IMG/VR virus record: IMGVR_UViG_3300017767_000003
Coordinates: 1-64,000 of that record
Direction: 5' to 3' (one strand)
From: a virus
DNA: 64,000 nt
The notes beneath the pieces are model-generated. The model was not told the origin of the DNA and searched no databases. It saw only the letters and a program-made list of their open reading frames with translations. Below, piece by piece: positions 2,628-61,011 of this stretch. The translations under genes and the position numbers were made by a program. Each line of letters begins with the position of its first letter. The stretch's first letter is position 1.

Positions 2628-2635
2628 TATAAATA
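2628..2635 (+). promoter_or_regulatory. Late promoter for the portal gene
   Basis: Exact TATAAATA with five bases (TTAGT) before the ATG of gene 20. By T4 spacing (octamer ending at -6) transcription would start on the A of the ATG, so portal mRNA from this promoter would be leaderless. The AGGGGAG upstream is 13 bases from the start, too far for normal ribosome binding. Confidence 0.7.
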
Positions 2636-2640
2636 TTAGT

Positions 2641-4176
2641 ATGGAAATTTTTGGGTTTGAAATATCCCGTAAAAAGGATGAACTACGAAGCATAGAGGTG
2701 TCTAAGGCACCTTCCTTCGTCCCCCCTGTTGAAGATGACGGTACACCCGTCATTCAACAACAACCAGGCGGGTTCATATCAGGTGGAGCATATGGTTCCT
2801 ACATTGATATGGAAGGTGGTATCAAGAATGAGGTTGGTCTCATTACAAGATACCGTGAAATATCTCTAATCCCTGAGTGTGACTCAGCGATTGAAGATAT
2901 TGTTAATGAGTGTATTACATCGGATTCTCAAGACAAGATTGTATCACTCGACCTCAGAAACGTAAAACTTTCTGATAGTATCAAAAACAAGATACATGAC
3001 GAGTTTAATCATATTCTTGCCTTAATGAAGTTCAATCAGAACTCTCACGAATTATTCCGAAAATGGTACATAGATGGAAGGATATACTTCCATAAGGTCG
3101 TTGACGGCAAACGTCCGAAAGCAGGTATTGTAGACCTAAGAAACATTGACCCACTTAAAATTAAGAAGGTCAGAAATGTAATCAAAGGTAAATCGGACAA
3201 AGCAGGTGTTGACGTAATAAAACAAGTTGAAGAATTTTTTGTCTTCAACGATAAAGGTTTTGATAAATCTTCAGCGAATGACGGAACGTCCGTGAAGATT
3301 GCTCCCGAAGCAGTATCATATACTACATCGGGTTTATTAGACTACACAAAGAACGTAGTCATTGGGTATCTTCATAAAGCATTGAAGACTGCAAACCAGT
3401 TATCAATGATGGAAGACGCACTAGTTATCTATAGGATATCACGTGCACCCGAAAGAAGGATTTTCTACATTGACGTAGGTAACCTTCCAAAGGCAAAAGC
3501 AGAACAGTATTTGTCTGAGGTTATGAACAAGTATAGAAATAAACTTGTTTACAATGCAGACACAGGTGAAATCAAAGATGATAGAAAACATATGTCTATG
3601 TTGGAAGATTTTTGGTTACCTAGGAGAGAAGGTGGACGTGGGACAGAGATAACAACTTTGCCAGGCGGACAAAATCTCTCGGAGATAGAAGACATTGAAT
3701 ACTTTAAGTCGAAGTTATACAAGAGTTTAAGTATTCCAGCTTCTAGAATGGAAGCAGACGCAGGATTCAATTTGGGACGTGCGTCCGAAATCCAAAGAGA
3801 TGAACTTAAGTTTAATAAGTTCACGAATAGACTTCAAAAGAAGTTTAGTAGAGTATTTGTTGACGTTTTAAGAACTCAATTGATACTAAAAGAAATTGTA
3901 AGTGGCGAAGAATTTGACAAAATGGTCAAAGACTTCGTACAGTTTGATTATGCTAGCGATAACCACTTCGCAGAGTTGAAAGACGCTGAAATTATGCGTG
4001 AGAGACTTGAGACTTTATCAACCGTAGACGAGTATGTTGGTAAGTATTATTCTCAGGAGTTTGTACGTAAGAATATCTTAATGCAAACAGAAGAAGAAAT
4101 GAAACTTATGGACAAACAAATGGAAGACGAGGGTGGAGACGAAGAAGGTGGTGACGATGAATTTGGGGGATTTTAA
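2641..4176 (+). CDS. 20: Portal vertex protein gp20
   Basis: 511 residues, close to T4 gp20 (524). The portal is a dodecamer at the capsid vertex through which DNA is packaged and to which the tail attaches. Recognisable segments include ECDSAIEDIVNECI (about residues 79-92), the RAPERRIFYIDVGNLPKAKA region (about 269-288), a MLEDFWLPRREGGRGTEI segment and LPGGQNLSEIEDIEYF. The tail end is strongly acidic with a glycine-rich EGGDEEGGDDEFGGF end. It follows gp19 and precedes the prohead core genes, as in T4 and cyanomyophages. Confidence 0.95.
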   Translation: MEIFGFEISRKKDELRSIEVSKAPSFVPPVEDDGTPVIQQQPGGFISGGAYGSYIDMEGGIKNEVGLITRYREISLIPECDSAIEDIVNECITSDSQDKIVSLDLRNVKLSDSIKNKIHDEFNHILALMKFNQNSHELFRKWYIDGRIYFHKVVDGKRPKAGIVDLRNIDPLKIKKVRNVIKGKSDKAGVDVIKQVEEFFVFNDKGFDKSSANDGTSVKIAPEAVSYTTSGLLDYTKNVVIGYLHKALKTANQLSMMEDALVIYRISRAPERRIFYIDVGNLPKAKAEQYLSEVMNKYRNKLVYNADTGEIKDDRKHMSMLEDFWLPRREGGRGTEITTLPGGQNLSEIEDIEYFKSKLYKSLSIPASRMEADAGFNLGRASEIQRDELKFNKFTNRLQKKFSRVFVDVLRTQLILKEIVSGEEFDKMVKDFVQFDYASDNHFAELKDAEIMRERLETLSTVDEYVGKYYSQEFVRKNILMQTEEEMKLMDKQMEDEGGDEEGGDDEFGGF

Positions 4177-4179
4177 TAA

Positions 4180-4359
4180 ATGACTGAAATAGCAAAAAAG
4201 ATAGTTGACGAAATAGAACAAGGTAAGTTGCAAGACGCTAAGGATTCTATTTTTGACGGCATTAAAGAGAAAGCTGCCCAAGCAGTGGACATGAAGAGAG
4301 TGGAAGCAACGGTTGATTGGATGAAAAATGAACCTGAAGCTACAGCAGAGGAAGAGTAA
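4180..4359 (+). CDS. Small prohead-core-like protein (gp67 position)
   Basis: 59-residue acidic and lysine-rich helical protein, three bases after the portal gene and abutting the next start. Its sequence begins MTEIAKKIVDEIEQGKLQDA and ends in an acidic EPEATAEEE tail. T4 encodes the small prohead core proteins gp67 and gp68 at this exact place between genes 20 and 21, so an internal scaffold role is likely from position and charge. Sequence identity to gp67 could not be shown. A run of G (GGGGGA) upstream could act as a weak ribosome site. Confidence 0.6.
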   Translation: MTEIAKKIVDEIEQGKLQDAKDSIFDGIKEKAAQAVDMKRVEATVDWMKNEPEATAEEE

Positions 4360-4656
4360 ATGAAATCTTTTGCATCTATATCAAGAGAACTTTATGAGGC
4401 GAAATTTAAGTTGCCTAAAAAACATAAAGAACTTAAAGTAGATACAATGAAAACTGGTGGAAAGACCTACAACATTACCTATAGTAAAATGGGTAAAGAC
4501 ATTTACGCATTCGTTAATAATAATGAAACAGGGCCTTACAAGGACTTGAAGGACGCAGAAAAATCTGTGAAGGAATTATCCAAACTCTTTAAACAAATGA
4601 ATTTTGAAGGGGTAACAGAAGAGGAAATTTTCAATGAAATTAATTTCAGAGTATAA
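4360..4656 (+). CDS. Unknown basic protein in the prohead core operon (gp68 position)
   Basis: 98 residues, starting immediately after the stop of the previous gene (TAA then ATG). It is lysine-rich (KLPKKHKELKVDTMKTGG) with a compact alpha/beta look, and a C-terminal helix KDLKDAEKSVKELSKLFKQ. Its last 23 bases overlap the start of the gene 21 protease. By position it corresponds to the T4 gp68 prohead core slot, but no residue-level resemblance could be confirmed. Translation is probably coupled to both neighbours. Confidence 0.6.
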   Translation: MKSFASISRELYEAKFKLPKKHKELKVDTMKTGGKTYNITYSKMGKDIYAFVNNNETGPYKDLKDAEKSVKELSKLFKQMNFEGVTEEEIFNEINFRV

Positions 4657-5280: not shown

Positions 5281-5288
5281 TATAAATA
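5281..5288 (+). promoter_or_regulatory. Late promoter for scaffold and capsid genes
   Basis: Exact TATAAATA two bases after the gene 21 stop. The leader to gene 22 (ATG at 5317) carries an AGGAG site. It gives separate late transcription of the abundant scaffold and major capsid proteins. Confidence 0.75.
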
Positions 5289-5316
5289 AAAAAGTAAACT
5301 CAAACAGGAGAAAAAT

Positions 5317-6681
5317 ATGGCAGAGTTAGATACAAACCAAGATGAGCTATTAGAGGCAGGACAACCTGACGCTAAAGCTGAGAAAGGTGACAAAAACCCG
5401 CCTAAGCAAGGTTCAAGTGATTCCGCTAAAATAGAAAGTGGAAAAGCTGAAGTCGTCAAACCCGAAGAAAATCCTGTTGACAAAGCTGTCGATTCTGTAG
5501 ATAAAGCAGAAGATGGAGTCAAAGAGATTTCCGCAGACCCACAACAAAAGGGTGAAGGGAAACCTGATAAGGCTGAAAAAATCAAAGAAGGCGAAGGCGC
5601 TGACGAAGAAGCAGAAGTTTCTGAAGCAGAAGAAAAAGTTCCTTCCAAGATGGAAACAATCAAAGCTATGGTCAACACAATGAAGGAAATGAATAAAGAA
5701 GACCTTCAAGGTATTTTCTCTTCTATTTCAGAAGATGAGGTTGACGAGTCTTTGACTAAGGCAGAAATCGCAAGAAACATTGTCGAACTAGTTAAAAAAC
5801 TAGATGACGAAAAGGTTCAAGAGATGTACGGCAAGATGAAAGGTGTCGAGGACGAAGAGGAAGAAGACGAAGACAAGAAGATGAAAAAAGAATCTGTTGA
5901 CGAAGAAACTTCCGAAGAACTCGAATCTAAACTTGTAGAGATTGAAATTGAAGACGACCTAAATGCAATCTCAGAAGCATTAGACTTGTCAGAAGAGAAC
6001 CGAGAAAAAGCTAAAACAATCTTTAAAGCTGCAGTATCAAGTAAAGTTGCAGAAGTTGAAAAAGGATTGAAAGAAGCTTACGAAACAGAATTACAAACCT
6101 CAGTAGATAAGGTCAAAGCCGACTTAAGTGAAGCAGTTGACAAATACTTGTCTTACGTTGCTGACGAGTGGACGAAAGAAAACGAATTAGCTATCGAGAG
6201 AGGTTTGAAAGCTGAAATGACTGAAAACTTTATTTCAGGATTGAAAACATTGTTCGTAGAACATTATGTTGACGTTCCCGAAGATAAGTATGACGTGATT
6301 GATGAGCTTTCTAATCGTCTCGATGAGATGGAAGTTAAACTTGACTCCGAAGTTCAAACAAATATGGACATCGCAGAAGAGTTGAACACTCTCAAGAGAG
6401 AAAATGTGGTAAGGGATGCGTCTTCGGACTTAACTGAATCACAGAAAGAGAAATTAGAATCACTTGCAAACGGTGTAGACTTCAATGACGAAGCTGACTT
6501 CCAAGAGAAGATTGGTGAAATCAAAGAAGCATACTTCGGTATTGAAGGTGAATCTATTTCTGAGGATACCGTAGTTGAAGAAGGAACTGGAACGCTTGAA
6601 GATGAAAACTCTTCACCTGTTATAGACCCTTCCCTTCAAAGGTATTCTGACGCAATTAGTAAACTAAAACCATTAGGTTAA
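5317..6681 (+). CDS. 22: Prohead scaffold protein gp22
   Basis: 454 residues, much longer than T4 gp22 (269). The C-terminal two thirds form a highly charged, largely helical coiled-coil protein rich in Glu, Lys and Asp, as expected for the internal scaffold that is degraded by gp21. The extra N-terminal part (about residues 1-125) is a low-complexity Ala/Glu/Lys/Pro region. Features typical of marine gp22 include TKENELAIERGLKAEMTENF (about residues 285-304) and the end SLQRYSDAISKLKPLG. Position between genes 21 and 23 makes the call firm despite low complexity. Confidence 0.92.
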   Translation: MAELDTNQDELLEAGQPDAKAEKGDKNPPKQGSSDSAKIESGKAEVVKPEENPVDKAVDSVDKAEDGVKEISADPQQKGEGKPDKAEKIKEGEGADEEAEVSEAEEKVPSKMETIKAMVNTMKEMNKEDLQGIFSSISEDEVDESLTKAEIARNIVELVKKLDDEKVQEMYGKMKGVEDEEEEDEDKKMKKESVDEETSEELESKLVEIEIEDDLNAISEALDLSEENREKAKTIFKAAVSSKVAEVEKGLKEAYETELQTSVDKVKADLSEAVDKYLSYVADEWTKENELAIERGLKAEMTENFISGLKTLFVEHYVDVPEDKYDVIDELSNRLDEMEVKLDSEVQTNMDIAEELNTLKRENVVRDASSDLTESQKEKLESLANGVDFNDEADFQEKIGEIKEAYFGIEGESISEDTVVEEGTGTLEDENSSPVIDPSLQRYSDAISKLKPLG

Positions 6682-8871: not shown

Positions 8872-8893
8872 AAACACATTTTCGTGATATAAT
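8864..8893 (+). promoter_or_regulatory. Early/middle-type promoter for uvsY
   Basis: CTAGTT at 8864-8869, 18 bases, then perfect TATAAT at 8888-8893. Six bases separate TATAAT from the uvsY ATG, so the predicted transcript starts on the start codon. The -35-like element is a weak match to the CTTRYA form seen at other replication genes; the -10 and spacing match well. Confidence 0.65.
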
Positions 8894-8899
8894 TATAGT

Positions 8900-9343
8900 A
8901 TGAACTTAGAAGAGCTACGCAAAGAGTGGGCTAAGGATTGTGAAGTTGACGATATCGAACTAGATAAATCGTCTCTAGAAGTCCCCAAACTACACGCAAA
9001 ATATCAAGAATTCTTGACCGATAATATATTGGTTCTCAAGAACTTAGAATTCCAATACAATATCCTGCTTAAAAATAAGTGGTTATGGTATAACGGAAAG
9101 ATGTCTGAGGAACAAATAAAAGAACTTGGTTGGGAAGACGACCCCTTTGACGGTCTCAAAGTCATGAAGAATGATATGCAGATATGGTATAACGCTGACC
9201 AAGACTTACAAAGAATGAATGGTAAAGTGGAGTATCAAAAAATCGTTATCAACTTCTTGAAAGAGTGTATGCAAAATATCACTTGGAGACACCAAACGAT
9301 TAAGAATACAATCGACTGGCGAAAGTTTATGGCGGGACAATGA
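8900..9343 (+). CDS. uvsY: Recombination mediator UvsY
   Basis: 147 residues (T4 UvsY is 137). UvsY loads the UvsX recombinase onto gp32-coated single-stranded DNA. Diagnostic features are the N-terminal LEELRKEWAKDCEVDDIELD, the SLEVPKLHAKYQEFLTDN helix and a C-terminal ECMQNITWRHQTIKNTIDWR segment. It overlaps the following oxygenase by four bases (ATGA), so the two are co-translated. No ribosome site precedes the ATG, in line with a leaderless transcript. Confidence 0.9.
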   Translation: MNLEELRKEWAKDCEVDDIELDKSSLEVPKLHAKYQEFLTDNILVLKNLEFQYNILLKNKWLWYNGKMSEEQIKELGWEDDPFDGLKVMKNDMQIWYNADQDLQRMNGKVEYQKIVINFLKECMQNITWRHQTIKNTIDWRKFMAGQ

Positions 9344-12809: not shown

Positions 12810-12823
12810 ATACTAAAAACCCT

Positions 12824-12853
12824 CTTACATATTAGTAAGTATTAACATATAAT
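12824..12853 (+). promoter_or_regulatory. Early/middle-type promoter for the late sigma factor
   Basis: AAAAACCCT then CTTACA (12824-12829), an 18-base spacer and perfect TATAAT (12848-12853), with six bases to the gp55 ATG. The same layout occurs upstream of uvsX, the SleB hydrolase, gp61 and others. Predicted transcription begins on the start codon. Confidence 0.75.
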
Positions 12854-12859
12854 AGATAC

Positions 12860-13432
12860 ATGACTAAAAAAACCACTGATAAGAAACAAGCGGAACATTA
12901 CGTAAATAACAAAGAGTTTACAGCTGCCGTTGCGGAGTACAATGCGTCCGTTAAACTTGCAGAAGAAAAAGGTAAACAACCACCACGTATGACAGAATAT
13001 ATTGGTGAGTGTATTTACAAGATTGCAACCCGTTTGTCCACACGTCCAAATTTCATTAACTATACCTATAGAGATGAAATGATTTGTGACGCTATAGAAA
13101 ACTGTCTACAGTATATAAACAACTTCAACGTTGAAAAATCTAACAATGCATTCGCATACGTTACACAAATTTGTTACTATGCATTCCTAAGACGTATTCA
13201 AAAAGAAAAGAAACAAGTCTTTATCAAGCAAAAACAGATAGAAGAAGCGGGTATTACAATGGACGCTTATACTACTATTGACGGTTCTCATGACCCTACA
13301 TTTGTAAATACAAACGTAGAATGGATGCAGGAACACATGAACCACGTGGAATATGAACCACGTAAAAGTAAAAAGAAGTCAGGTAAAGCAAAAGCAAATC
13401 TTGACCAAGACTTGAGCAAAAACAACACTTAA
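12860..13432 (+). CDS. 55: Late-transcription sigma factor gp55
   Basis: 190 residues (T4 gp55 is 185). gp55 directs host RNA polymerase to TATAAATA late promoters. Family features: the N-terminal KKQAEHYVNNKEFTAAVAEY region, MTEYIGECIYKIATRLSTRP, and the sigma region 2-like core YTYRDEMICDAIENCLQYIN followed by AFAYVTQICYYAFLRRIQKE. The many TATAAATA sites in this window are its expected targets. It overlaps gp47 by one base. Confidence 0.93.
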   Translation: MTKKTTDKKQAEHYVNNKEFTAAVAEYNASVKLAEEKGKQPPRMTEYIGECIYKIATRLSTRPNFINYTYRDEMICDAIENCLQYINNFNVEKSNNAFAYVTQICYYAFLRRIQKEKKQVFIKQKQIEEAGITMDAYTTIDGSHDPTFVNTNVEWMQEHMNHVEYEPRKSKKKSGKAKANLDQDLSKNNT

Positions 13433-14499: not shown

Positions 14500-16211
14500 T
14501 AAATTTTAAAAAAGTAAGATACAAAAATCTATTATCAAGTGGTAACAAGTTTACCGAAATACGATTAGACAAACACCAAACGACTCTTATATTAGGTGAG
14601 AACGGCAGTGGTAAGTCTACACTTCTTGACGCTTTATGTTTTGGATTGTATGGACGTGGGTTTCGTAATCTAAAGAAAGATTTACTTATCAATAGTATCA
14701 ACGAGAAAGGTCTAGAAGTAGAGATTGAATTCTCTATTGGTACAAAACAATACAAGGTAATCCGTGGTGCAAAACCAAACAAGTTTGAATTATATCTTGA
14801 TGACGTAATGCTTAATCAAGACGCAAACGTAAGAGACTACCAAGAACACTTAGAAAAACAAATTCTGAAAATGAGTTTCCGCTCATTTACACAGGTCGCA
14901 ATATTAGGTTCTGCTAACTTTACTCCGTTCATGCAGTTGAAAGCAAAGGACAGAAGAAACTTAGTGGAAGACCTATTGGATATCTCTATATTCTCTACTA
15001 TGCAAGACATACTAAGGAAAAGGATATCAACACATCAAAATGAAATCACTGAGACTAGTCATGAAATCAATATTATGGAAGAGAGGATTCATGGATTGAA
15101 TGAGCAACTTAATGTACTACGTGAAAACCGAGAGAGTAAAATCTTAAAGTATGAATCCACAGTAGGGGAAACCCAAGATAACATTAATCAACTCATGGAG
15201 AACATAGATGAAAAGACGCAAGATGTGGTGGCGCAAGCACGACTTATCGAGGATAAAGATACTAAAGAAAATAAACTCACAGAACTTATGGACTTGGAAC
15301 GACAACTCGAAACGGCTCGTAAGAAAACAATTAGAGAAATCAAATTCTACGAAGACAATGACGAATGTCCCACCTGCGAGCAGTCCTTAGATGAAACGCA
15401 CAAGAAAGAACACATTGAACAGAAGGAGACTAAGAAGACGGAGTTGTCAACTGCTATCGAAGAAATTGAAAAACAAATCGGAGAGTGTTCAAGAAGACTT
15501 GAAGAAATAAGAGAAATTCAATCTAAGATAGAAGAGATACAGAAAAAAATAAGTCTCTTACAAACAGAAGTAGTATCCAATCAAAAGTATATTACTAAAC
15601 TGCAAAAAGAAATCGAAGACCTAAAAGGTGAAGCAACTGCAGGTTCAGATGCAGAAGATAAAATTGTAGATTCAGAAGATAAACTCGAAGTTCTTTTACA
15701 GAAGAAAGAAACACAAACAGAAACTTCTCACTACTATGATATCGCTTCAACACTTCTTAGAGACCAAGGTGTAAAACAAAAGATTATCAAACAGTATGTT
15801 CCTATTATGAACAAACTAATCAACAAATATCTAGCACAACTAGAGTTCTATGTTGGTTTTGAGATTGACGAATCTTTTGAAGAAACAATCAAATCTAGAT
15901 TCAGAGACGTATTCAAATACGATAATTTCTCTCAGGGTGAAAAGATGAGAATTGACTTATCATTACTATTCACTTGGAGAAGTATTGCAAGAATGAAAAA
16001 TAGTGTTAACACTAATTTACTTATTCTTGACGAAGTATTTGATAGTAGTTTAGATAGTGCTGGTACAGACGACTTCTTAAAACTATTGAATGGTATGCCT
16101 GAAAGAACAAACGCATTTATCATATCTCATAAAGGGGACGCATTGTATGATAAGTTCAATGACGTACTACGTTTTGAGAAATATAAGAACTTTTCAAGGG
16201 TTATGGAGTGA
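14496..16211 (+). CDS. 46: Recombination endonuclease subunit gp46 (Rad50/SbcC type)
   Basis: 571 residues (T4 560). Features in order: Walker A GENGSGKSTLLD (about residues 34-45), long coiled-coil arms, a zinc-hook CPTC at about residue 290, ABC signature FSQGEKMRIDLSLLF and Walker B LLILDEVFDSSLD. It is the ATPase partner of gp47. It overlaps gp47 by four bases. Confidence 0.95.
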   Translation: MINFKKVRYKNLLSSGNKFTEIRLDKHQTTLILGENGSGKSTLLDALCFGLYGRGFRNLKKDLLINSINEKGLEVEIEFSIGTKQYKVIRGAKPNKFELYLDDVMLNQDANVRDYQEHLEKQILKMSFRSFTQVAILGSANFTPFMQLKAKDRRNLVEDLLDISIFSTMQDILRKRISTHQNEITETSHEINIMEERIHGLNEQLNVLRENRESKILKYESTVGETQDNINQLMENIDEKTQDVVAQARLIEDKDTKENKLTELMDLERQLETARKKTIREIKFYEDNDECPTCEQSLDETHKKEHIEQKETKKTELSTAIEEIEKQIGECSRRLEEIREIQSKIEEIQKKISLLQTEVVSNQKYITKLQKEIEDLKGEATAGSDAEDKIVDSEDKLEVLLQKKETQTETSHYYDIASTLLRDQGVKQKIIKQYVPIMNKLINKYLAQLEFYVGFEIDESFEETIKSRFRDVFKYDNFSQGEKMRIDLSLLFTWRSIARMKNSVNTNLLILDEVFDSSLDSAGTDDFLKLLNGMPERTNAFIISHKGDALYDKFNDVLRFEKYKNFSRVME

Positions 16212-16217
16212 TAAATA
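16210..16217 (+). promoter_or_regulatory. Late-type promoter for the ferritin-like gene
   Basis: GATAAATA (one mismatch to the late octamer) overlapping the gp46 stop and ending four bases before the ATG at 16222. If used, the transcript would begin at or next to the start codon. Confidence 0.5.
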
Positions 16218-16221
16218 AACG

Positions 16222-17286
16222 ATGCAAATATTAAAAACAGAAACACCCAAAGAAGTACGAGACTTTCCAGCGAAAGAAGAACTAAACCCTACAGACGTTG
16301 TAGAGATATTCCAAACACCTTTAACAGGTTCTTACAATTGGGACTACACAGTCCAAGATAATCGTATCAAAAAACTATACGAACTAGGTAAGAAGTTAAA
16401 TTGGAATGTAGAAGTTGACGTTGATTGGTCACCGCCATTCAAACCAATGACATCTGAGTTCTTTGAATTCCAAGACAATCAATGGAAGAATCACGAACAA
16501 TACAAAACATTAACCCAAGAAGAAAAGGAAGAATTTCACCAAGATTTAAATTCATGGTCAGTAAGTCAATTCCTTCATGGAGAACAAGGTGCATTATTAG
16601 TTGCGTCACAATTAGCCAGTTGTGCACCCACATTCAATGCAAAACTCTATGCAGCTTCTCAGACATTTGACGAAGCACGACATGTCGAAGCTTTTAACAA
16701 ATATCTACAGACAAGACTCAAACGTTCATGGCCAATTGGCAGAAGTCTAAAAGGATTACTTGATAAAATTTTAACTGACCCACGTTGGGATTTAAAATTT
16801 ATAGGTATGCAAGTTGTCATTGAAGGTTTAGCATTAGCCGCTTTTCAAGCAAGTCGAGAAACAAGTACCGACCCTGTATACAAAGAAATGATAGGACTTA
16901 TCATTAGGGACGAAGCAAGACATGTAACTTTTGGTATCAACTATCTAACTGATTTTGTCCAAACACTTTCAGAAGAAGAACAAATAGACAGGGCAAACTT
17001 TGCCTTGGAAGCATGTACTGTAAGTAGAAATAGACTTAAACCAACTGCTGTATGGGAAAAGTATGGATTTGACGTTGATTATACATTAGACTACGAAAAA
17101 CATAATATCTTTACCTCACAATTCCAAGACATACTATTTACTAGAATCATGCCAAACCTTAAAAAGATTGGACTACTGCGTGAAGAACTTATACCTGAAT
17201 ACGAAAAGTTAGGTGTTATGGGATACGCAGAAGGTGACAGTGATTATGAAACAAGTTGGGAAGAATTATCGAAACCACTTAAGTGA
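16222..17286 (+). CDS. Ferritin-like diiron protein, candidate oxygenase
   Basis: 354 residues, four-helix-bundle diiron pattern: Glu in HGEQGALL (about residue 120), EARHVE (about 150-155), Glu in QVVIEGLAL (about 198) and RDEARHVTFG (about 230-239). The two ExxH pairs plus two lone Glu make a complete di-iron site. It is not a normal NrdB: the spacing and the surrounding sequence (LVASQLASCAPTFNAKLYAA) differ from ribonucleotide reductase R2. The sequence resembles uncharacterised bacterial ferritin-like proteins. It could be a substrate oxygenase or N-oxygenase; a divergent R2 partner for the phage NrdA cannot be ruled out. No ribosome site is visible. Confidence 0.75.
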   Translation: MQILKTETPKEVRDFPAKEELNPTDVVEIFQTPLTGSYNWDYTVQDNRIKKLYELGKKLNWNVEVDVDWSPPFKPMTSEFFEFQDNQWKNHEQYKTLTQEEKEEFHQDLNSWSVSQFLHGEQGALLVASQLASCAPTFNAKLYAASQTFDEARHVEAFNKYLQTRLKRSWPIGRSLKGLLDKILTDPRWDLKFIGMQVVIEGLALAAFQASRETSTDPVYKEMIGLIIRDEARHVTFGINYLTDFVQTLSEEEQIDRANFALEACTVSRNRLKPTAVWEKYGFDVDYTLDYEKHNIFTSQFQDILFTRIMPNLKKIGLLREELIPEYEKLGVMGYAEGDSDYETSWEELSKPLK

Positions 17287-17289: not shown

Positions 17290-17297
17290 TATAAATA
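17290..17297 (+). promoter_or_regulatory. Late promoter, leaderless geometry
   Basis: Exact TATAAATA followed by GTATT and the ATG at 17303: five bases between, so the predicted transcript starts on the ATG. Confidence 0.7.
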
Positions 17298-17302
17298 GTA
17301 TT

Positions 17303-18685
17303 ATGAAGTCTTTCTCACAATTCACAGACAAAATTACCGTAACGAATCCTAAGCATGTGATTCGTGAGTTAACTGTGTCACCACACTACAAAAACAGAAA
17401 CGGATTCAATCCTTATTATGTTCTAGACATAGACGATAAAGATGTCAAAGCAACAGTAGGTGCAGGAAAGATACTTTATAAATCAGTAGAGAATCCTACA
17501 GGTGAACTTCTCAAAAAATTAGGTAATGGTAAATACTATTTTCAAGTAGAACTAGACGGTTCTGATACTCCGTATTACATTCAATCAACTAAAGCAAAAG
17601 TCAAAGCACACTTTGGAAGTAAGAGTAGAAAGGATTCAACTGCTTCTTCCAACGTGAATGAATTACTAACCGTACACTTCTTAATACACCCCGACCAAAT
17701 TCAAAATCAATTTGACTTTGAGAAATGGGTTGCAGGACAAAGTGGCGGAACAGGAGTTCTTGCAGGTTCAGGAAAAGAAGTCACCTATGAAGACATAGTT
17801 ATGTTATTAGATAAAGACGAAACTTCATTGAGAGATATTCTAATCGGAATGAACAATGCAAAAGCAGTTGCAAAAGATTTAAAAGGAAGGTCAATCAAAA
17901 ATGTATATTGGGTTCCAAGAGGTAAACCTGCAGGGATAGGTGGTAAGAATCCTTCGGACGTTATCGTTCAAACTGCAGACGGATATCAAGGATACTCTAA
18001 CAAGATATCAGGTGGTGCAGACGCTACACCTAAAATCAATACAAACTTAGTTGCATTCTATTCTAAAGTAGGAGATAAGGGACAACTTGGTAGAATTAAA
18101 TCTATGATTGATAACGCATGGGTCAAAGCGACTTCCATGATAGACCCCAAATATAAGAATGCTCACAAAGCAATCAACTCATTTAATATCAAGAAAGAAA
18201 AGTATAGTGAGTCCTCTTCACAAAGAGCATTCGCTACAATAGCAAAAGAATTCCAAAAAGATAAATTAGATTTCTATTCAAAAGATTTCTATTGGCCTTT
18301 TAGGAATGCTTTACTAGACGACTTTTCAAAATATGTTTCTTCACCAAGAAACCTACTATACTTTTTGAATACTATAGGTTACTATACATATGACGACCCT
18401 AATTCAACACCATGTCCATATAAACTATTGATAGGTAGTGAGAAGGGTTCAACAATTAAAGACGTTAGTGGAGACGACAGTTTTAGACAAATGTTAATGT
18501 CAGATAATGCTAGTGATTTTAGTAAAATAAAATCTTCGTATGACGGTAAACAACAAACGTTTAAGTTGTCTTGGCATTATAAACCTTTAAAGATTGACGC
18601 AACCATGCCAGTTGTTTTAAGAACTAGACAAGCAGGGGGTTGGTCAGGTAAATCTTTATATGTAACCAGTAGTGGAATAAAATAA
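17303..18685 (+). CDS. Unknown late protein
   Basis: 460 residues from the ATG at 17303 (MKSFSQFTDKITVTNPK); the frame is open further upstream into the diiron gene, but the late promoter fixes this start. Beginning with MKSF-type sequence is shared by several late genes here. Contents: a basic beta-rich first third, a Gly/Ser stretch, and a C-terminal part with LKIDATMPVVLRTRQAGGWS. No motif recognised. The late promoter suggests a virion or packaging-related role. Confidence 0.75.
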   Translation: MKSFSQFTDKITVTNPKHVIRELTVSPHYKNRNGFNPYYVLDIDDKDVKATVGAGKILYKSVENPTGELLKKLGNGKYYFQVELDGSDTPYYIQSTKAKVKAHFGSKSRKDSTASSNVNELLTVHFLIHPDQIQNQFDFEKWVAGQSGGTGVLAGSGKEVTYEDIVMLLDKDETSLRDILIGMNNAKAVAKDLKGRSIKNVYWVPRGKPAGIGGKNPSDVIVQTADGYQGYSNKISGGADATPKINTNLVAFYSKVGDKGQLGRIKSMIDNAWVKATSMIDPKYKNAHKAINSFNIKKEKYSESSSQRAFATIAKEFQKDKLDFYSKDFYWPFRNALLDDFSKYVSSPRNLLYFLNTIGYYTYDDPNSTPCPYKLLIGSEKGSTIKDVSGDDSFRQMLMSDNASDFSKIKSSYDGKQQTFKLSWHYKPLKIDATMPVVLRTRQAGGWSGKSLYVTSSGIK

Positions 18686-24803: not shown

Positions 24804-24812
24804 ACATATAAT
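24783..24812 (+). promoter_or_regulatory. Early/middle-type promoter for the DUF3310-like gene and clamp
   Basis: CTAGAC, 18 bases, perfect TATAAT (24807-24812), then six bases to ATG 24819. The -35 match is weak; the -10 and distance agree with the other members. Confidence 0.6.
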
Positions 24813-24818
24813 AATGGT

Positions 24819-25106
24819 ATGAGTATTAATTACAAATACAACGAGAGAGAACTCTTAAAGGAGTTCTCTTCGTATATAGACAAGACTTATGACCAACACT
24901 ATAGTCATAATCAATTTCAGGCGACTGAATTTATTATGGACAGTGGTCATGGTGAGGGATTTTGTATCGGGAACATTATGAAATATGCACAACGATACGG
25001 AAAAAAAGATGGGTATAACAGAGCAGACCTTTTGAAAGTAATCCACTATGGATTCCTTGCTCTAAACAATCATGATAGGAGACTAAAAAGTGATGAAGAT
25101 AAGTAA
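24819..25106 (+). CDS. DUF3310-like protein (proposed nucleotide kinase family)
   Basis: 95 residues. The C-terminal block GFCIGNIMKYAQRYGKK...NRADLLKVIHYGFLALN matches the pattern of DUF3310 proteins found in many phages, often annotated as nucleotide kinase. No P-loop is visible, so catalysis is doubtful. The end overlaps the clamp gene by about 14 bases, tying it to replication. Confidence 0.65.
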   Translation: MSINYKYNERELLKEFSSYIDKTYDQHYSHNQFQATEFIMDSGHGEGFCIGNIMKYAQRYGKKDGYNRADLLKVIHYGFLALNNHDRRLKSDEDK

Positions 25107-29248: not shown

Positions 29249-29256
29249 TATAAATA
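29249..29256 (+). promoter_or_regulatory. Late promoter opening the curli region
   Basis: Exact TATAAATA, then GTCGT and the ATG at 29262: five bases, so predicted leaderless. It could drive the run of overlapping genes to about 33.85 kb, so the curli-like proteins would be late products. Confidence 0.7.
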
Positions 29257-29261
29257 GTCGT

Positions 29262-33894: not shown

Positions 33895-33901
33895 AGTGTG
33901 T

Positions 33902-36965: not shown

Positions 36966-36972
36966 AAACCCA

Positions 36973-37002
36973 CTATACAGACATACGCTTGTTTAGTATA
37001 AT
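36973..37002 (+). promoter_or_regulatory. Early/middle-type promoter
   Basis: AAAAACCCA then CTATAC (36973-36978), 18 bases, TATAAT (36997-37002), six bases to ATG 37009. Predicted leaderless. Confidence 0.7.
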
Positions 37003-37008
37003 AGGTGT

Positions 37009-40675: not shown

Positions 40676-40693
40676 AACAAACTGTAGTATAAT
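40664..40693 (+). promoter_or_regulatory. Early/middle-type promoter for DNA polymerase
   Basis: CTTGTA (40664-40669), 18 bases, TATAAT (40688-40693), six bases to the gp43 ATG at 40700. Predicted leaderless. Confidence 0.72.
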
Positions 40694-40699
40694 TACAGT

Positions 40700-43213: not shown

Positions 43214-43221
43214 CATAAATA
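43214..43221 (+). promoter_or_regulatory. Late-type promoter for the thermonuclease
   Basis: CATAAATA with six bases to ATG 43228; one mismatch to the late octamer. Predicted start within one base of the ATG. Confidence 0.45.
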
Positions 43222-43227
43222 AAGGGT

Positions 43228-43689
43228 ATGTATGAATATAGAGCAAAAATTTTAAAAGTCATAGATGGTGACACTGTTGATGTGGATATCGACCTAGGTT
43301 TTGGCGTAGTCTTAACAGACGAAAGAGTCAGAATGATGGGCATCGATACACCCGAAAGCCGTACTAGAGATAAAGTTGAAAAAACTTTTGGTAAAGCTTC
43401 AAAGGCACGTCTGATTGAAATTTTAGGCAAAGAAACTATATTACAAACGCAAATTAATAGAAATGGCGAAGATATGAAGGGGAAGTTCGGTAGAATATTA
43501 GGTGACTTCCAAATTGAAATTGACGGTGAAACTAAACTTGCTACCCAAGTATTAGTAGAAGAGGGACATGCAGTTCCTTATTTTGGTGGTTCAAAAGAAG
43601 AGATTCGAGAACAACATATGATTAATAGAAAAAGATTAATTGACGAAGAAGTTGTAATAATGTCTTATGATAAAGCAGGAGTTCAATAA
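43228..43689 (+). CDS. Staphylococcal-nuclease-like endonuclease
   Basis: 153 residues of the SNc fold: KVIDGDTVDVDIDLGFG, VRMMGIDTPESRTRD (Arg and Asp of the active site), GKFGRILGDFQIE and VLVEEGHAVPYFGG. It cleaves DNA or RNA with calcium. No signal peptide, so it acts in the cytoplasm, perhaps in host DNA breakdown. Common in marine T4-like phages. It overlaps the next small gene by one base. Confidence 0.88.
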   Translation: MYEYRAKILKVIDGDTVDVDIDLGFGVVLTDERVRMMGIDTPESRTRDKVEKTFGKASKARLIEILGKETILQTQINRNGEDMKGKFGRILGDFQIEIDGETKLATQVLVEEGHAVPYFGGSKEEIREQHMINRKRLIDEEVVIMSYDKAGVQ

Positions 43690-43859: not shown

Positions 43860-43866
43860 AAAACCC

Positions 43867-46562: not shown

Positions 46563-47768
46563 ATGGCAGTTAAAAATTTACATTTAGAACATTTAGAAGA
46601 CGAGATTATCAATAATGGTATTGATGGTGGACGTTCTGCTATCTATTTCCTTATGGAACTACGCAAAATGCTCAAGGGTAATAGTAGTTCACGTGTTAAC
46701 ATGACTGTCAAATGGGACGGTGCACCTGCTATATGGGCAGGGCCTCACCCCGAATCAGGTGAGTTCTTTGTTGCAAAGAAATCTTTATTCACCCAAAAAC
46801 AATTACACTATAAATCAGAACAAGAAATCAAAGACGCACCTGAACTTACAGGTGACCTAGAAGAAAAATTCCTTACTTCATTTAGATATCTTTCAAAAGT
46901 AGGCATGAAAGAAATTCTACAAGGTGATTTAATGTATACTAATGATAAAGGTTCTACTAAATTTGATGACGGTAAGTACATTACATTCCAACCTAATACA
47001 ATTCTATACGCAGTCAAAGAAGATTCAGACTTAGGTAAAAGGATTAAGAAATCAAAAATGGGTATCGTATTTCATACCACATACAGTGGTTCTACCATAG
47101 AAGGATTAGGTGCTAAATTTGGTGCAAATATAAGTGGACTAAAACAAGGTGACGTTTGGATAGATGACGCAACATATAAAGACGTTAGTGGTACAGGTTC
47201 AATGACTGCTAAAGAAGCAATGCATTTATCTAAGATACTAACCGCAACAGGTAAAGCATTCCATGGAATCAAGAAAAATGATTTAACTAAGTTCCAAAAA
47301 GTTATGGCAACTATGGAATCAAAAGGTGCTTCGGGGGCAACATATAAAACATATGCTAACTCACTTATACGTACAGGTGGTAAATTCAAACCAAACTCTC
47401 AAGACTACATAAACTATGTTGGTAAATATTGGGAAGAAAAAATAGTTGCAAAAGTAAAACAAGAAAAGACTAAGAATATCAAAAGAGAGATTGGACAAGA
47501 TTTAATTAAAGAATTAAATGGATTAAGAAAAATGATTGATAATCTTACTGCTTTCCAATCATATTTGGTAGAAGGTAAAATGTTAATTATCAATTGTCTT
47601 AACAGAGTTAAGGGTATAGGAACATTCAAGAAAACAAACAAGGGATTTGAAGTAGTAAATCCCGAAGGTTACGTAGCAATCGATAAAGAAGGTGGTGCTG
47701 TTAAACTGGTAGACCGTATGGAATTTGCCTATAATAACTTCACTGCACAAAAGAATTGGGATAAATAG
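46563..47768 (+). CDS. Phage protein with nucleotidyltransferase/ligase-like KxDG motif
   Basis: 401 residues. The N-terminal VNMTVKWDGAPAIWAGPHPE contains KWDG, the KxDG signature of DNA/RNA ligases and capping enzymes, followed by GEFFVAKKSLF, a strand ILQGDLMYTND (like the ligase motif III position), TFQPNTILYAV and GIVFHTTYSG. The order suggests a ligase-like fold. The usual Arg after DG is replaced by Ala-Pro. The family appears as an unknown in marine T4-like phages (I believe as DUF6267). Late expression is likely from the upstream CATAAATA. Confidence 0.72.
   Translation: MAVKNLHLEHLEDEIINNGIDGGRSAIYFLMELRKMLKGNSSSRVNMTVKWDGAPAIWAGPHPESGEFFVAKKSLFTQKQLHYKSEQEIKDAPELTGDLEEKFLTSFRYLSKVGMKEILQGDLMYTNDKGSTKFDDGKYITFQPNTILYAVKEDSDLGKRIKKSKMGIVFHTTYSGSTIEGLGAKFGANISGLKQGDVWIDDATYKDVSGTGSMTAKEAMHLSKILTATGKAFHGIKKNDLTKFQKVMATMESKGASGATYKTYANSLIRTGGKFKPNSQDYINYVGKYWEEKIVAKVKQEKTKNIKREIGQDLIKELNGLRKMIDNLTAFQSYLVEGKMLIINCLNRVKGIGTFKKTNKGFEVVNPEGYVAIDKEGGAVKLVDRMEFAYNNFTAQKNWDK
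47760..47767 (+). promoter_or_regulatory. Late-type promoter, leaderless geometry
   Basis: GATAAATA across the preceding stop, five bases before ATG 47773; predicted start on the ATG. Confidence 0.55.
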
Positions 47769-47772
47769 AAGT

Positions 47773-48609
47773 ATGTATGACGATTTAATAATAGAAGACG
47801 CAGAATACCAAGGTAAGAAGGTAAAACTGAATGACCCTATCAGAAACCCTAGTGGTAGTAAAAAGAAGTTCAAGGTCTACGTTAAGAACGATAAAGATAA
47901 TGTCGTTAAGGTTGAGTTTGGTGACCCTAATATGGAAATCAAACGTGACGACCCCAAGAGATTAAAAGCATATCGTGCTAGAATGAACTGTGATACAGAC
48001 CCAGGCCCAAAATGGAAAGCAAACTATTGGTCTTGTTGGCAATGGAGAGCAAACGCACCAGTAGATGACGATGTCAAATATGACTTTGAATATTTCTTAG
48101 GTGAAGTAGTATCAATGAAAACTAGACTGAAAATGAAACAGGCATTCAAGAAGAACAAAGCAAAGATACTAAGAGCAAGAAAGAAAGCTGCTAAGAAACC
48201 ACAACTACAGAAAGGTCAGATAGAAAAGAAAGCAGAATTACAGGCACGTAAAGCAATAGAAAAGAAAATTCTTAAAGGTAAATCCAAGAAAGATTTAGGT
48301 GTTGGTGCAAAAGCAGCCCTTGAAAAACAAATGGCGAAGAAACAAAAAGCAATCAAGAAGATTGCTATGAAGATACGTAAAGACGTAATCGCAAAAGAGA
48401 AAGCAAAAATCAAAAAGAAACTTGGGGGTGTGAATGAAGAGTTTGCATTACCAAAATATCCAGCACAAACTGATATCAAATTTAAAGAGGATGATTGGGT
48501 AATTGGTGACCCTGAAAAGGGATATGAGTATGACACCTCTAAGACTGGTGACCAAAACATGGAAATCATGAATGACTTGGTGGATAAAGAAAGGGAGACA
48601 ATGAAGTGA
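47773..48609 (+). CDS. Basic late protein with conserved phage motif
   Basis: 278 residues from ATG 47773 (MYDDLIIEDAEYQGKKVKLN). The block VEFGDPNMEIKRDDPKRLKA then YRARMNCDTDPGPKWKANYW and SCWQW recurs in many marine phage and some virus proteins of unknown role; its Cys pair may bind metal. The middle is an extreme Lys/Ala-rich helix (about residues 120-220), as in packaged internal or DNA-binding proteins. It overlaps the next gene by four bases. Confidence 0.75.
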   Translation: MYDDLIIEDAEYQGKKVKLNDPIRNPSGSKKKFKVYVKNDKDNVVKVEFGDPNMEIKRDDPKRLKAYRARMNCDTDPGPKWKANYWSCWQWRANAPVDDDVKYDFEYFLGEVVSMKTRLKMKQAFKKNKAKILRARKKAAKKPQLQKGQIEKKAELQARKAIEKKILKGKSKKDLGVGAKAALEKQMAKKQKAIKKIAMKIRKDVIAKEKAKIKKKLGGVNEEFALPKYPAQTDIKFKEDDWVIGDPEKGYEYDTSKTGDQNMEIMNDLVDKERETMK

Positions 48610-56705: not shown

Positions 56706-56713
56706 GATAAATA
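56706..56713 (+). promoter_or_regulatory. Late-type promoter, leaderless geometry
   Basis: GATAAATA after the previous stop with five bases (CACAT) before ATG 56719; predicted start on the ATG. Confidence 0.55.
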
Positions 56714-56718
56714 CACAT

Positions 56719-57117
56719 ATGAAAACTTTTAAAACATATCTAGTAGAAGACCTTGACCATTCATACGAAGGAATGGGTGGGGAACACAACATAGATGACG
56801 CAGAAATTAAAACAAGACTCAATGCAATTTTAGGTCACACTGCTTCTATGGAATACATAAATCCAAAAGCTGCTGTTGCACAAATGGAAGCAAAACTTGC
56901 TTTACTTGGATTGTCACATGACGGAAATATAAACGACATGGACATGAACGAAAGTGGAGAGTTTGAAATCTCTTTCAAACGTTACGGAGATATCATGGGT
57001 AAATCAGTAGATACTCCTCATGACGAAATTGAAGAAGAATCTATGAACTATACTATGAAAATCAGAACTGAGAAATTAGAATCAGGTTCATTTAAAGTAT
57101 ACGGTTCATTAGTCTAA
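56719..57117 (+). CDS. Unknown late protein
   Basis: 132 residues from ATG 56719 (MKTFKTYLVEDLDHSYEGMG), the start fixed by the late promoter; the frame is open upstream into the previous gene. The body is alpha then beta (NDMDMNESGEFEISFKRYGD, ESMNYTMKIRTEKLESGSFK). Several late proteins here begin with MK[ST]F plus a short acidic segment. Not recognised. Confidence 0.65.
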   Translation: MKTFKTYLVEDLDHSYEGMGGEHNIDDAEIKTRLNAILGHTASMEYINPKAAVAQMEAKLALLGLSHDGNINDMDMNESGEFEISFKRYGDIMGKSVDTPHDEIEEESMNYTMKIRTEKLESGSFKVYGSLV

Positions 57118-57163: not shown

Positions 57164-57535
57164 ATGAGTCTATTTGACAAACTTACAGCTAAGAACTTCG
57201 CCGCCTACGCAATAAAACACTATGATGACCCTCAGTGTGAGGACATGGAAGATTTTTATGAAGACTTACGTAGGTTCCGATACCTTAAAAGACTTCTCTT
57301 TAGATACTATCAACACGGAGAACTTAGAGAACGTCTCATGCTTAATCACCTCATTTGTATTTTCAATGTCTTTGGATATGAAGCGTCAATGAGAATGTTA
57401 AAGTTTAAAATCAAAGACCAAGGTTATTGGTCGTCAATCAAAACAATGCTTATATATCTTGGATACGTTGAAGAGGGATTTGAAGTAGAGGTTCCAATAG
57501 ACGAAACTCTTGCAATGACCCTTCGAGAGGTATAA
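57164..57535 (+). CDS. Conserved T4-like phage protein of unknown function
   Basis: 123 residues. Characteristic: MEDFYEDLRRFRYLKRLLFR, YYQHGELRERLMLNHLICIF, NVFGYEASMRMLKF. Proteins of this kind occur widely in marine T4-like phages without known role. Helical, soluble, no catalytic motif. The inverted repeat lies in its upstream region. Confidence 0.72.
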   Translation: MSLFDKLTAKNFAAYAIKHYDDPQCEDMEDFYEDLRRFRYLKRLLFRYYQHGELRERLMLNHLICIFNVFGYEASMRMLKFKIKDQGYWSSIKTMLIYLGYVEEGFEVEVPIDETLAMTLREV

Positions 57536-57538
57536 ATA
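57531..57538 (+). promoter_or_regulatory. Late promoter, leaderless geometry
   Basis: Exact TATAAATA overlapping the previous stop, then GATAT and ATG 57544: five bases. Predicted start on the ATG. Confidence 0.7.
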
Positions 57539-57543
57539 GATAT

Positions 57544-58143
57544 ATGGCCACCCGAATAATAGACACGCTAATTGTATTCCGTATACTTAAGATGTTAACA
57601 ACACCTTTCGTGAAAACGCAAGCATACAAGTTCGGTTTCATTGATAAGAACGGTAAAAGAATCACGCATAAACCCGACCCAAAGAATCCTGCAGTAAAAC
57701 TAGAAAACAAACCTACTACGTCTGATGAGAAAGCGTCACTTACACCATTACATAGATTGGTATTCAATCTAAAAAAACTTATAGAAAAAATACCATTTGG
57801 TAAATCAGCATTTGCCTCATACGCAGTAGCACTCGCATTACTCAAAGAAGAAACAAGATTAACAGAAGACCAAGCAGACGAGTTATGTGAAAAGTTTTAC
57901 AGACACTTAAAGGAGAAAAATTTAGTCACGTCTGAGACACTACAAGAAACTATAAATCTTGCAGACTTACGTGTGGGAGTCACATACAATCTTAGACTTG
58001 CCATCTATCAAAATGATAATAGATATAGACCAAAATCACCTATAAAGATTGTAGCAGAACATAGTATAGTGTATGGTGTTCCTGTTTACATAGGATTTCT
58101 AGAAGAACACAGAGTATTGGGAACAGCAGATGATGTTTATTGA
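57544..58143 (+). CDS. Conserved T4-like late protein of unknown function
   Basis: 199 residues. The start IDTLIVFRILKMLTTPFVKT then QAYKFGFIDKNGKRITHKPD is typical of a marine T4-like phage family. The middle (HRLVFNLKKLIEKIPFGKSA) is helical. No enzyme motif. A virion role is probable from the late promoter. It overlaps the PAP2 gene by 14 bases. Confidence 0.7.
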   Translation: MATRIIDTLIVFRILKMLTTPFVKTQAYKFGFIDKNGKRITHKPDPKNPAVKLENKPTTSDEKASLTPLHRLVFNLKKLIEKIPFGKSAFASYAVALALLKEETRLTEDQADELCEKFYRHLKEKNLVTSETLQETINLADLRVGVTYNLRLAIYQNDNRYRPKSPIKIVAEHSIVYGVPVYIGFLEEHRVLGTADDVY

Positions 58144-58891: not shown

Positions 58892-58894
58892 ATT

Positions 58895-59707: not shown

Positions 59708-59942
59708 TAGAAAAGCAGAAGACTTTCCACTAGTAAAACCTGACCTAGGGCCATCACCTAAAACTGATAAAAACAGTGAAGGGTACAAACTTATGATGAA
59801 ATCATATGAAGGTGCTATGGTAGAGTACAATGAAAAACTAGAGAAATGGTTAGCAGGAGAAGAAGTCGCAGGGATTGACTACCATGTCGTGCCTGACGGT
59901 GAAGGCGGAACTAAAGAAGAACCTCTAGAAGATTCTGAATAA
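59700..59942 (+). CDS. Small acidic unknown protein
   Basis: 80 residues, AGGAGA site before the ATG inside the end of the membrane protein gene. Acidic with Pro (DFPLVKPDLGPSPKTDKNSE) and Gly near the end. Not recognised. Confidence 0.62.
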   Translation: MSDRKAEDFPLVKPDLGPSPKTDKNSEGYKLMMKSYEGAMVEYNEKLEKWLAGEEVAGIDYHVVPDGEGGTKEEPLEDSE

Positions 59943-59947
59943 AACAC

Positions 59948-59977
59948 CTTGTTCAAACCATATCTATCTAGTATAAT
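59948..59977 (+). promoter_or_regulatory. Early/middle-type promoter for primase and NrdA
   Basis: AAAACAC then CTTGTT (59948-59953), 18 bases, TATAAT (59972-59977), eight bases to ATG 59986. Near-leaderless. Confidence 0.7.
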
Positions 59978-59985
59978 GGCTAGAC

Positions 59986-61011
59986 ATGATATGGTTAGAA
60001 CGCAAATATTTGTCTATGGTGGCATCGAGACTCGATGTCTGCAAGTGGAAGAACGATAAGACACTAAATCACAGGTGTCCCTATTGTGGTGATTCACAAA
60101 AGAATAAACACAAGGCAAGGGGATATCACTTTCAGGTAGACCAAAACTTTATATACAAATGTCACAATTGTGGCAAGTCTACTTCGTCCGTCCACTTCTT
60201 AAAAGACCACTTTCCTGATATCCACAGAGAATATCTGAAAGAATATCTACAGGAAAAAGGCGGTAAAGTTAAAGTCAAGAAACAGAAAATGCCAAGTGCA
60301 AACGACTTTAAGTTTAAAAGTAAGAACATTCTAAATACGACTAGGGACGATTTGTCAGCAGTCGCTGTTCGTGCATGGGAAAAGACGGAATCAAGAGAAT
60401 ACCTTCAAGACCGACAGTTAGACGACTCTATTATCAGAGAACTATGGTATGTTACTCAAGCACAAAGTCTGTCTTTCTTAAGTAGTAAGTACAGAAATAG
60501 AGAATTAGGCAAAGACCCTAGAATAGTTTTCCCATTTTATTCAGAGAATGGTGAATTGATTGGTGTAAGTGGCAGGGCAATCAACGACACGCCCTTGAGA
60601 TACTTAACCATGAGATTCGTAGATGACGTACCACTCATCTACAACATCAACAATGTGGACAAGTCAAAGACAATCTATGTCACAGAAGGGCCGATAGATA
60701 GTCTATTCCTACCTAACTCTATAGCAGTTGGCGGTAGTGATTTTAAAAAGATACAAAATCTAAAAGAGAATGCAATAATAATTTATGATAACGAACCACG
60801 AAACACTGAGATAGTTAAAAAGATTGACGAGGTTATTGACCTCGGATTTACCGTATGTATTTGGGGTGATAAAAGAGTCGAAGGACTCAAAGATATTAAT
60901 GATATGATAATGAACGGCATGACACAAAATGAAATCGTGGAAGTTATAAACTCTTGCACTTATTCAGGCCTTTCTGCTAAACTTAAGTTACAGGAGTATA
61001 AAAAAACATGA
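59986..61011 (+). CDS. 61: DNA primase gp61
   Basis: 341 residues (T4 342). Zinc ribbon CPYCGDSQ...YKCHNCGKSTS (CxxC pairs, about residues 26-57), then a Toprim core: IVFPFYSENGELIGVSGRAI, TIYVTEGPIDSLFLPNSIAV and IIIYDNEPRNTEIV. It makes RNA primers with gp41. Overlaps nrdA by four bases. Confidence 0.93.
   Translation: MIWLERKYLSMVASRLDVCKWKNDKTLNHRCPYCGDSQKNKHKARGYHFQVDQNFIYKCHNCGKSTSSVHFLKDHFPDIHREYLKEYLQEKGGKVKVKKQKMPSANDFKFKSKNILNTTRDDLSAVAVRAWEKTESREYLQDRQLDDSIIRELWYVTQAQSLSFLSSKYRNRELGKDPRIVFPFYSENGELIGVSGRAINDTPLRYLTMRFVDDVPLIYNINNVDKSKTIYVTEGPIDSLFLPNSIAVGGSDFKKIQNLKENAIIIYDNEPRNTEIVKKIDEVIDLGFTVCIWGDKRVEGLKDINDMIMNGMTQNEIVEVINSCTYSGLSAKLKLQEYKKT

Follow-up and report, generated by a model that had tools for sequence, protein, structure and literature searches.

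Fixed spacing between two promoter classes and start codons suggests leaderless transcription in a T4-like phage lineage

In the genome of a T4-like virus from an uncultured marine group, two kinds of promoter motif were found at a fixed, single-base distance from the start codons of a set of genes. The window studied here was a stretch of 64,000 bases out of the 80,753-base virus record IMGVR_UViG_3300017767_000003. The T4-type late octamer (NATAAATA) preceded one group of ATG codons by 5 bases, and the hexamer TATAAT preceded another group by 6 bases. This spacing is real, strong, conserved, and lineage-bound. Judging from sequence comparison, it was best explained, and very probably correctly so, by leaderless transcription from both promoter classes, with 5' ends predicted at these ATGs. 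An earlier note on this DNA had proposed that transcription starts on the ATG; comparative sequence strongly supported this for both classes, but not the accompanying suggestions that leaderless expression was systematic and reflected adaptation to the host.

According to the proposed mechanism, the promoter would direct transcription to begin at the A of the ATG, and the primary transcript would begin with 5'-AUG and be translated leaderless. Late promoters of the T4 type would be recognised by RNA polymerase carrying the phage sigma factor gp55, with the ATG 5 bases downstream. Promoters of the sigma70 type would consist of TATAAT, frequently with a TTGACA-like -35 element or an AAAACCC box upstream, and with the ATG 6 bases downstream. 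The same promoters would also drive the Shine-Dalgarno (SD) bearing leaders of other genes, making this a mixed strategy. We infer that RNA 5' ends lie at these ATGs and that ribosomes use them; the case was firmer in the late class than in the TATAAT class.

In what follows, d is the number of bases between the motif end and the ATG. When the 40 bases before 19 named starts were inspected, the motif distances given in the earlier note proved correct at all 15 sites. The octamers were also as described except at ATG 43228, which had CATAAATA, neither TATAAATA nor GATAAATA; another octamer, AATAAATA, was located 23 bases ahead of this ATG. A motif scan of the window found ATAAATAN5ATG 6 times (0.65 expected) and TATAATN6ATG 7 times (1.06 expected), and none of 100 dinucleotide shuffles reached either count. 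Two of the seven TATAATN6ATG matches were weak, namely 28910, which is closely followed by an in-frame, SD-led ATG at 28934, and 53920, which headed a 35-codon open reading frame (ORF). When an ATG-opened ORF of 40 or more codons began at d of 0 to 39, the distance was d=5 for 6 of 20 late octamers and d=6 for 6 of 17 TATAATs. The claimed lack of ribosome sites was confirmed at 14 of the 15 starts, which had no AGGA, GGAG, or GAGG at -16 to -5. At the exception, 56719, AGGA overlapped the octamer and lay upstream of the predicted +1. Longer-leader genes, with starts at 59, 5317, 36546, and 43921, did have AGGAGA or GGAGA, as the earlier note had stated.

The relatives comprised 399 loci from five scans of viral contigs, to which the window was added (ORFs of at least 60 codons, distinct contexts counted). 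Of 1138 late-octamer contexts, 209 led into an ATG-opened ORF at d=5; the runner-up distance, d=6, had 24, and d=4 had 15. For TATAAT, 147 of 3687 contexts had d=6, while 58 had d=7 and 35 had d=8. Scrambled A/T motifs gave no comparable peak (maximum 55 of 3698, for ATATTA at d=2), excepting NTAAATAA, whose 81 cases at d=4 overlap the promoter-motif sites at a one-base offset. The relatives were also split into seven groups according to query and identity, with ORFs of 40 codons and d of 0 to 39. In each of them the late octamer most often had d=5. TATAAT most often had d=6 in four groups (19, 43, 34, and 37 cases); in the primase group (20, with 28 at d=39) and the near-portal group (7, with 8 at d=39), d=6 was raised without being the top distance. 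In 12 uncultured records, counted whole, ATAAATAN5ATG occurred 93 times and the reversed pattern 3 times. With HTVC008M included, 61 gene families held 211 late and 146 TATAAT sites, 37 of them having late and 27 TATAAT sites.

Conservation was also seen at a single gene. A -10-like hexamer stood at d=6 before gp43 in all 23 sampled members of the clade, that is, the window and 22 loci picked from 80 (18 TATAAT, 4 TATACT, and 1 TATCAT). One gain of TATAAT at d=6 on the gp43 tree was considered and rejected: strict TATAAT took 6 changes, because in some members the hexamer at this distance is TATACT or TATCAT. Another idea, a bimodal leader length with a gap between 0 and about 15 bases, was rejected for the pooled uncultured loci, where d=6-15 was only slightly below d=16-45; such a gap did fit T4, S-PM2, and Syn9, in which octamers nearer than 12 bases were few or none.

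Several signatures placed the transcription start on the ATG itself. By convention, the last base of TATAAT lies at -7. Excerpts of PMC2988020 place the 8-base TATA box of T4 late promoters roughly one helical turn ahead of the start site. Taking this convention and the T4 late-box position together, the A of ATG falls at +1 for d=6 as well as for d=5. RNA polymerase is known to prefer starting on a purine preceded by a pyrimidine. Of 214 late sites, 97% had T or C at -1, as did 85% of 155 TATAAT sites, compared with 43% of 492 SD-led starts. Moreover, SD-leadered late promoters (n=205) had a purine in 80% of cases at the offset that the A occupies in leaderless sites, and in 49-74% at adjacent offsets. 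TTGACA matches of at least 5/6 were found upstream of 41 of the 155 TATAAT d=6 sites, with spacers of 17 (17 sites), 18 (23), and 16 (1), and none had spacers of 14, 15, or 19-21 within the scanned range of 14-21. A -35 element and/or the AAAACCC box accompanied 80 of 144 TATAAT d=6 sites versus 94 of 1777 TATAATs without an ATG within 50 bases.

The start codons themselves also differed. In the late class, ATG, GTG, and TTG numbered 166, 2, and 0 at d=5 versus 271, 46, and 72 at d=16-45; the corresponding numbers for the TATAAT class were 120, 4, and 8 at d=6 versus 463, 124, and 175. SD motifs were found in 15 of 166 late starts (9%) at d=5 versus 81 of 133 (61%) at d=16-30, and in 7 of 120 TATAAT starts (6%) at d=6 versus 71 of 221 (32%) at d=16-30. 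The starts of gp20, UvsY, and gp43 were those of their orthologues in HTVC008M, Mosig, and Melnitz or were 1-2 residues off, and these orthologues were mostly SD-led.

A number of observations weighed against leaderless transcription or its extent. TTGACA at spacer 16-18 accompanied just 3 of the 92 TATAATs in the window's own record, and open in-frame GTG or TTG extensions existed upstream of some starts (17213, 33896, 47725, and 56686). The TATAAT class was the noisier one: TATAAT-N6-ATG was found 74 times in the 12 uncultured records versus 27 times reversed, d=6 was not raised in the distant-portal group (3 cases), and there was no d=6 peak in HTVC008M (2 of 55) or Mosig (2 of 32). The same pattern exceeded its reverse in S-PM2 (5 vs 0) and in T4 (8 vs 2), where none of the 6 matches checked was a gene start. 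Additionally, the locus counts were not independent because loci overlapped and were related. Finally, 6 of the 15 sites lay just 4-16 bases from the upstream gene.

Among other explanations, the one closest to leaderless transcription was that some sites have ultra-short leaders of 1-3 bases rather than none. It overlaps with the preferred explanation without excluding it, and we regarded it as unlikely. In the TATAAT class, d=7 (58) and d=8 (35) did exceed most distances, and 33902 and 59986 in the window had d=7 and d=8. Against this, the late class was concentrated at d=5, with 209 cases as compared to 15 at d=4 and 24 at d=6.

Slightly less likely still was the possibility that these are minor internal promoters and that translation proceeds mainly from a read-through polycistronic mRNA, coupled to the upstream gene. 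The close upstream genes at 6 of 15 sites imply that read-through could also supply mRNA, and the octamers before 16222, 47773, and 57544 overlapped the upstream stop codon. However, single-base spacing, a pyrimidine at -1, and late-class starts that are almost all ATG would be unexpected for an ATG within a long mRNA. Moreover, gaps of 28-50 bases preceded gp20, UvsY, and gp55, and SD motifs were absent where re-initiation would benefit from them. It was very improbable that TATAAATA and TATAAT before the ATG were not promoters at all but A/U-rich translation signals within a longer leader. Unstructured A/U-rich regions can aid initiation without SD; nevertheless, TATAAT sites had TTGACA (spacer 16-18) or the box 29-31 bases upstream well over background, the identical octamer was found 16-45 bases ahead of SD-led genes (205 sites), and scrambled A/T motifs lacked a comparable peak. 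Chance or base composition had a negligible probability: short motifs in an AT-rich genome speak for it, but no shuffle of 100 reproduced the counts, the 12 uncultured records gave 93 versus 3 reversed, and T4, with a similar guanine-cytosine content, had the late pattern at a gene start in 0 of 2 cases.

Leaderless transcription thus remained the preferred explanation, and it appeared to be confined to part of the gene set. Calling it systematic was an overstatement, as the sheath, scaffold, and major capsid genes were among the late genes that kept SD leaders. Namely, SD-leadered late octamers were found at 50 sites for gp22, 24 for gp18, and 11 for gp23, and leaderless ones at none for all three; gp20 had 15 leaderless and 17 SD-leadered sites (sites of these four genes were identified by N-terminal sequence alongside the window's own genes). 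Among the 40 largest of 70 families, 33 were purely leaderless or purely SD-leadered. The products of gp22, gp18, and gp23 are abundant virion proteins, and leaderless genes may be those produced in smaller amounts. As a separate observation, an MK(S/T)F..F-like N-terminus was found in 30 of 201 leaderless late proteins (17303, 56719, and relatives) versus 0 of 199 SD-leadered ones; it resembles the T4 capsid targeting sequence.

The sites in the window are collected in Table 1. Additional octamer sites were located at 51545 (d=8) in the window and at 70193 (d=4) in the record past the window, where a TATAAT site was also present at 77555 (d=6). The late octamer overlapped the stop codon of the upstream gene at 16210-16217, 47760-47768, and 57531-57538, so that stop, promoter, and next start fell within about 16 bases. 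One predicted leaderless gene (37009-38145) had a DruA (Druantia) domain match of 34.7 bits.

Table 1. Putative leaderless sites, SD-leadered contrasts, and AAAACCC boxes in the window.
Feature	Position	Strand	Motif and distance	Remarks
gp20 (portal)	2628..2643	+	TATAAATA, d=5	phrog_213; same methionine as SD-led gp20 of other phages
phrog_2496 gene	17290..17305	+	TATAAATA, d=5	N-terminus MKSFSQF; family with 32 leaderless sites
phrog_18771 gene	29249..29264	+	TATAAATA, d=5	family with 20 sites
ATG 47773	47760..47775	+	GATAAATA, d=5	octamer overlaps stop codon upstream
Gene without PHROG	56706..56721	+	GATAAATA, d=5	N-terminus MKTFKTY
phrog_18642 gene	57531..57546	+	TATAAATA, d=5	overlaps upstream stop codon; family with 25 sites
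ATG 16222	16210..16224	+	GATAAATA, d=4	G at -1, weakest late site; overlaps upstream stop codon
Endonuclease gene, ATG 43228	43214..43230	+	CATAAATA, d=6	
Contrast: gp22 (scaffold)	5281..5319	+	late octamer, 28-base gap, ATG	gap contains AGGAGA
Contrast: gp18 (sheath)	12..61	+	late octamer 12-19, 39-base gap, ATG	gap contains AGGAGA
uvsY	8888..8902	+	TATAAT, d=6	N-terminus same as HTVC008M UvsY
gp55 (late sigma factor)	12848..12862	+	TATAAT, d=6	family with 30 sites
phrog_480 gene	24807..24821	+	TATAAT, d=6	family with 9 sites
phrog_19197 / DruA-domain gene	36997..37011	+	TATAAT, d=6	
gp43 (DNA polymerase)	40688..40702	+	TATAAT, d=6	
Endolysin gene	33889..33904	+	TATAAT, d=7	
gp61 (primase)	59972..59988	+	TATAAT, d=8	
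AAAACCC box upstream of gp55 promoter	12816..12822	+		from sequence
AAAACCC box	24775..24781	+		from sequence
AAAACCC box	33857..33863	+		from sequence
AAAACCC box	start 36440			from sequence
AAAACCC box	36965..36971	+		from sequence
AAAACCC box, SD-leadered uvsX promoter	43860..43866	+		from sequence

Part of the TATAAT promoters of this clade were marked by the AAAACCC box, which looks unreported. AACCC started 29, 30, or 31 bases ahead of TATAAT in 30, 88, and 21 of 3745 contexts, respectively, while other offsets had 0-9. The consensus was AAAACCC(T/C)CTTGACA, 17 bases, and TATAAT, with the box directly upstream of the -35 position. Among the records examined, the box was almost restricted to this clade: it accompanied 7 of the 92 TATAATs in the window's record but 1 of 60 in C48C1 (50 kb), 2 of 866 in the SAR11 sequence, and none in the examined parts of HTVC008M, Mosig, Melnitz, T4, S-PM2, Syn9, and DLP6. 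The first ATG after the box (n=128) peaked at d=6 (37) and d=7 (25), with a second cluster at d=11-13 (27). By analogy with MotA in T4, the box may be a candidate site for a phage transcription activator.

The T4-like genes of the window mostly followed the order of HTVC008M. They included gp18 sheath, gp20 portal, gp22, gp23, UvsY, gp55 (phrog_234 match, 2.5e-59), a peptidase, an AAA protein at the CobS position, gp44 (through a Gp44_lid domain match), gp43, UvsX, gp61, and NrdA. By major capsid protein, the nearest named records were Melnitz (67.5%), HTVC008M (65.2%), and Mosig (64.0%). On the gp43 tree, the window and the 22 uncultured loci formed a clade (100/100) separate from the seven named phages included; the isolates had long branches and their branching order was unsure. 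None of the 12 uncultured records had psbA, which S-PM2 and Syn9 carry. A single protein at 48606-49892 joined cytidylyltransferase-like and AAA/Zeta-toxin-like kinase domains. The window also encoded CsgF (curli secretion; 29843-30334) and a CHASE2-guanylate cyclase (34396-36246); like the window, HTVC008M and Melnitz encoded CsgF and a guanylate-cyclase protein. Peptide deformylase (PF01327) was located at 18687-19298. According to excerpts of PMC7029224, bS21, peptide deformylase, and aspartyl/asparaginyl beta-hydroxylase are pelagimyophage core genes.

bS21 was not found in the window's record (G000, an incomplete fragment of 80.8 kb); it was present in 5 of 5 related uncultured records of at least 120 kb and in 0 of 7 shorter ones. 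As a side observation, all 7 examined records of at least 120 kb with at least 6 late-pattern matches (G007-G011, HTVC008M, and Mosig) encoded bS21. It was absent from T4, S-PM2, Syn9, and C48C1, each with at most one gene-start match, and Melnitz was intermediate, having bS21 and 3 late-pattern gene starts. A virus-encoded bS21 might remodel host ribosomes, changing their choice of start sites to favour 5'-AUG phage mRNAs over SD-led host mRNAs, but we considered this unlikely, and common descent could explain the co-occurrence of bS21 with the late pattern equally well. The suggestion that translation was adapted to the host was unsupported, as one SAR11 genome (G002), examined over 400 kb in two contigs, had 5 cases of TATAAT-ATG at d=6 and no peak. 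Four SAR11 loci (73 kb) had no case, and in four SAR11 genomes the TATAAT-N6-ATG counts versus reversed were 36/26, 44/32, 43/29, and 32/28, a weak excess. As the 400-kb stretch had no d=6 peak, the trait did not simply copy the gene structure of a host, or at any rate not of that SAR11 genome; the window's host may differ.

If leaderless transcription is true, a T4-like lineage would transcribe a gene set from the start codon itself, using both host-type and phage-type promoters. This would give an exact base-level prediction for the cultured isolates HTVC008M and Mosig and would be relevant to how start codons and promoters are called in marine phage genomes. No report of start-codon-aimed promoters in T4-like phages was found in the literature searched, which included excerpts of PMC2984593, PMC9004378, PMC7892664, PMC2704228, and PMC5607370. 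In PMC7029224 (in excerpt), an attempt to predict the middle and late promoters of pelagimyophages "was unsuccessful", and the reason may be that these promoters leave no leader. Leaderless phage transcripts per se are not new: the consulted part of PMC5312081 calls phage transcripts "often leaderless". The phage AR9 was rejected as a parallel, with leaders of 26-491 bases according to the same part.

Known phages were compared by whole-record counts of ATAAATAN5ATG versus the reversed pattern, and matches were checked against the records' own annotation. The counts were 9 vs 1 in HTVC008M, 8 vs 0 in Mosig, and 4 vs 0 in Melnitz; C48C1 had 1 vs 1, DLP6 0 vs 0, T4 2 vs 0, S-PM2 2 vs 1, and Syn9 1 vs 1. 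Matches coincided with annotated coding sequence starts in 9 of 9 cases for HTVC008M, 7 of 8 for Mosig, 3 of 4 for Melnitz, and 1 of 1 for C48C1, as compared to 0 of 2 for T4, 0 of 2 for S-PM2, and 0 of 1 for Syn9. Thus, with 0 of 5 matches at gene starts in T4 and the two cyanobacterial phages S-PM2 and Syn9, leaderless use of the late class would indeed be unusual among T4-like phages. The DNA end protector gene had the late pattern in both HTVC008M and Mosig, and in Melnitz it was found at an unnamed gene adjoining the head completion gene.

The late promoters of T4 (gp55/gp33/gp45) share their octamer with the window, which also encodes a gp55 homologue. Nevertheless, the octamer preceded an ATG-opened ORF at d=5 in 0 of 18 cases in T4 (50 kb), 0 of 14 in S-PM2 (50 kb), and 0 of 18 in Syn9 (100 kb), and in the parts examined nearly all octamer-to-ORF distances were at least 12 bases, unlike in the window. 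The pelagimyophages HTVC008M and Mosig and the methylophage Melnitz shared the late-pattern gene starts (9, 7, and 3) with the window. Unlike the window, they lacked a TATAAT peak at d=6 (Mosig and Melnitz analysed over 100 kb each), and none of the 274, 273, and 158 TATAATs examined in them carried an AAAACCC box. Bacterial leaderless mRNAs are predicted by a TATAAT-like signal some 10 bases before the start. The window resembled them in the fixed -10 distance that would place +1 on the ATG, in having few SD motifs, and in the AUG start. In contrast to the bacterial case, the trait would belong to a phage and extend over two classes of promoter, of which one is the type that a phage sigma factor recognises.

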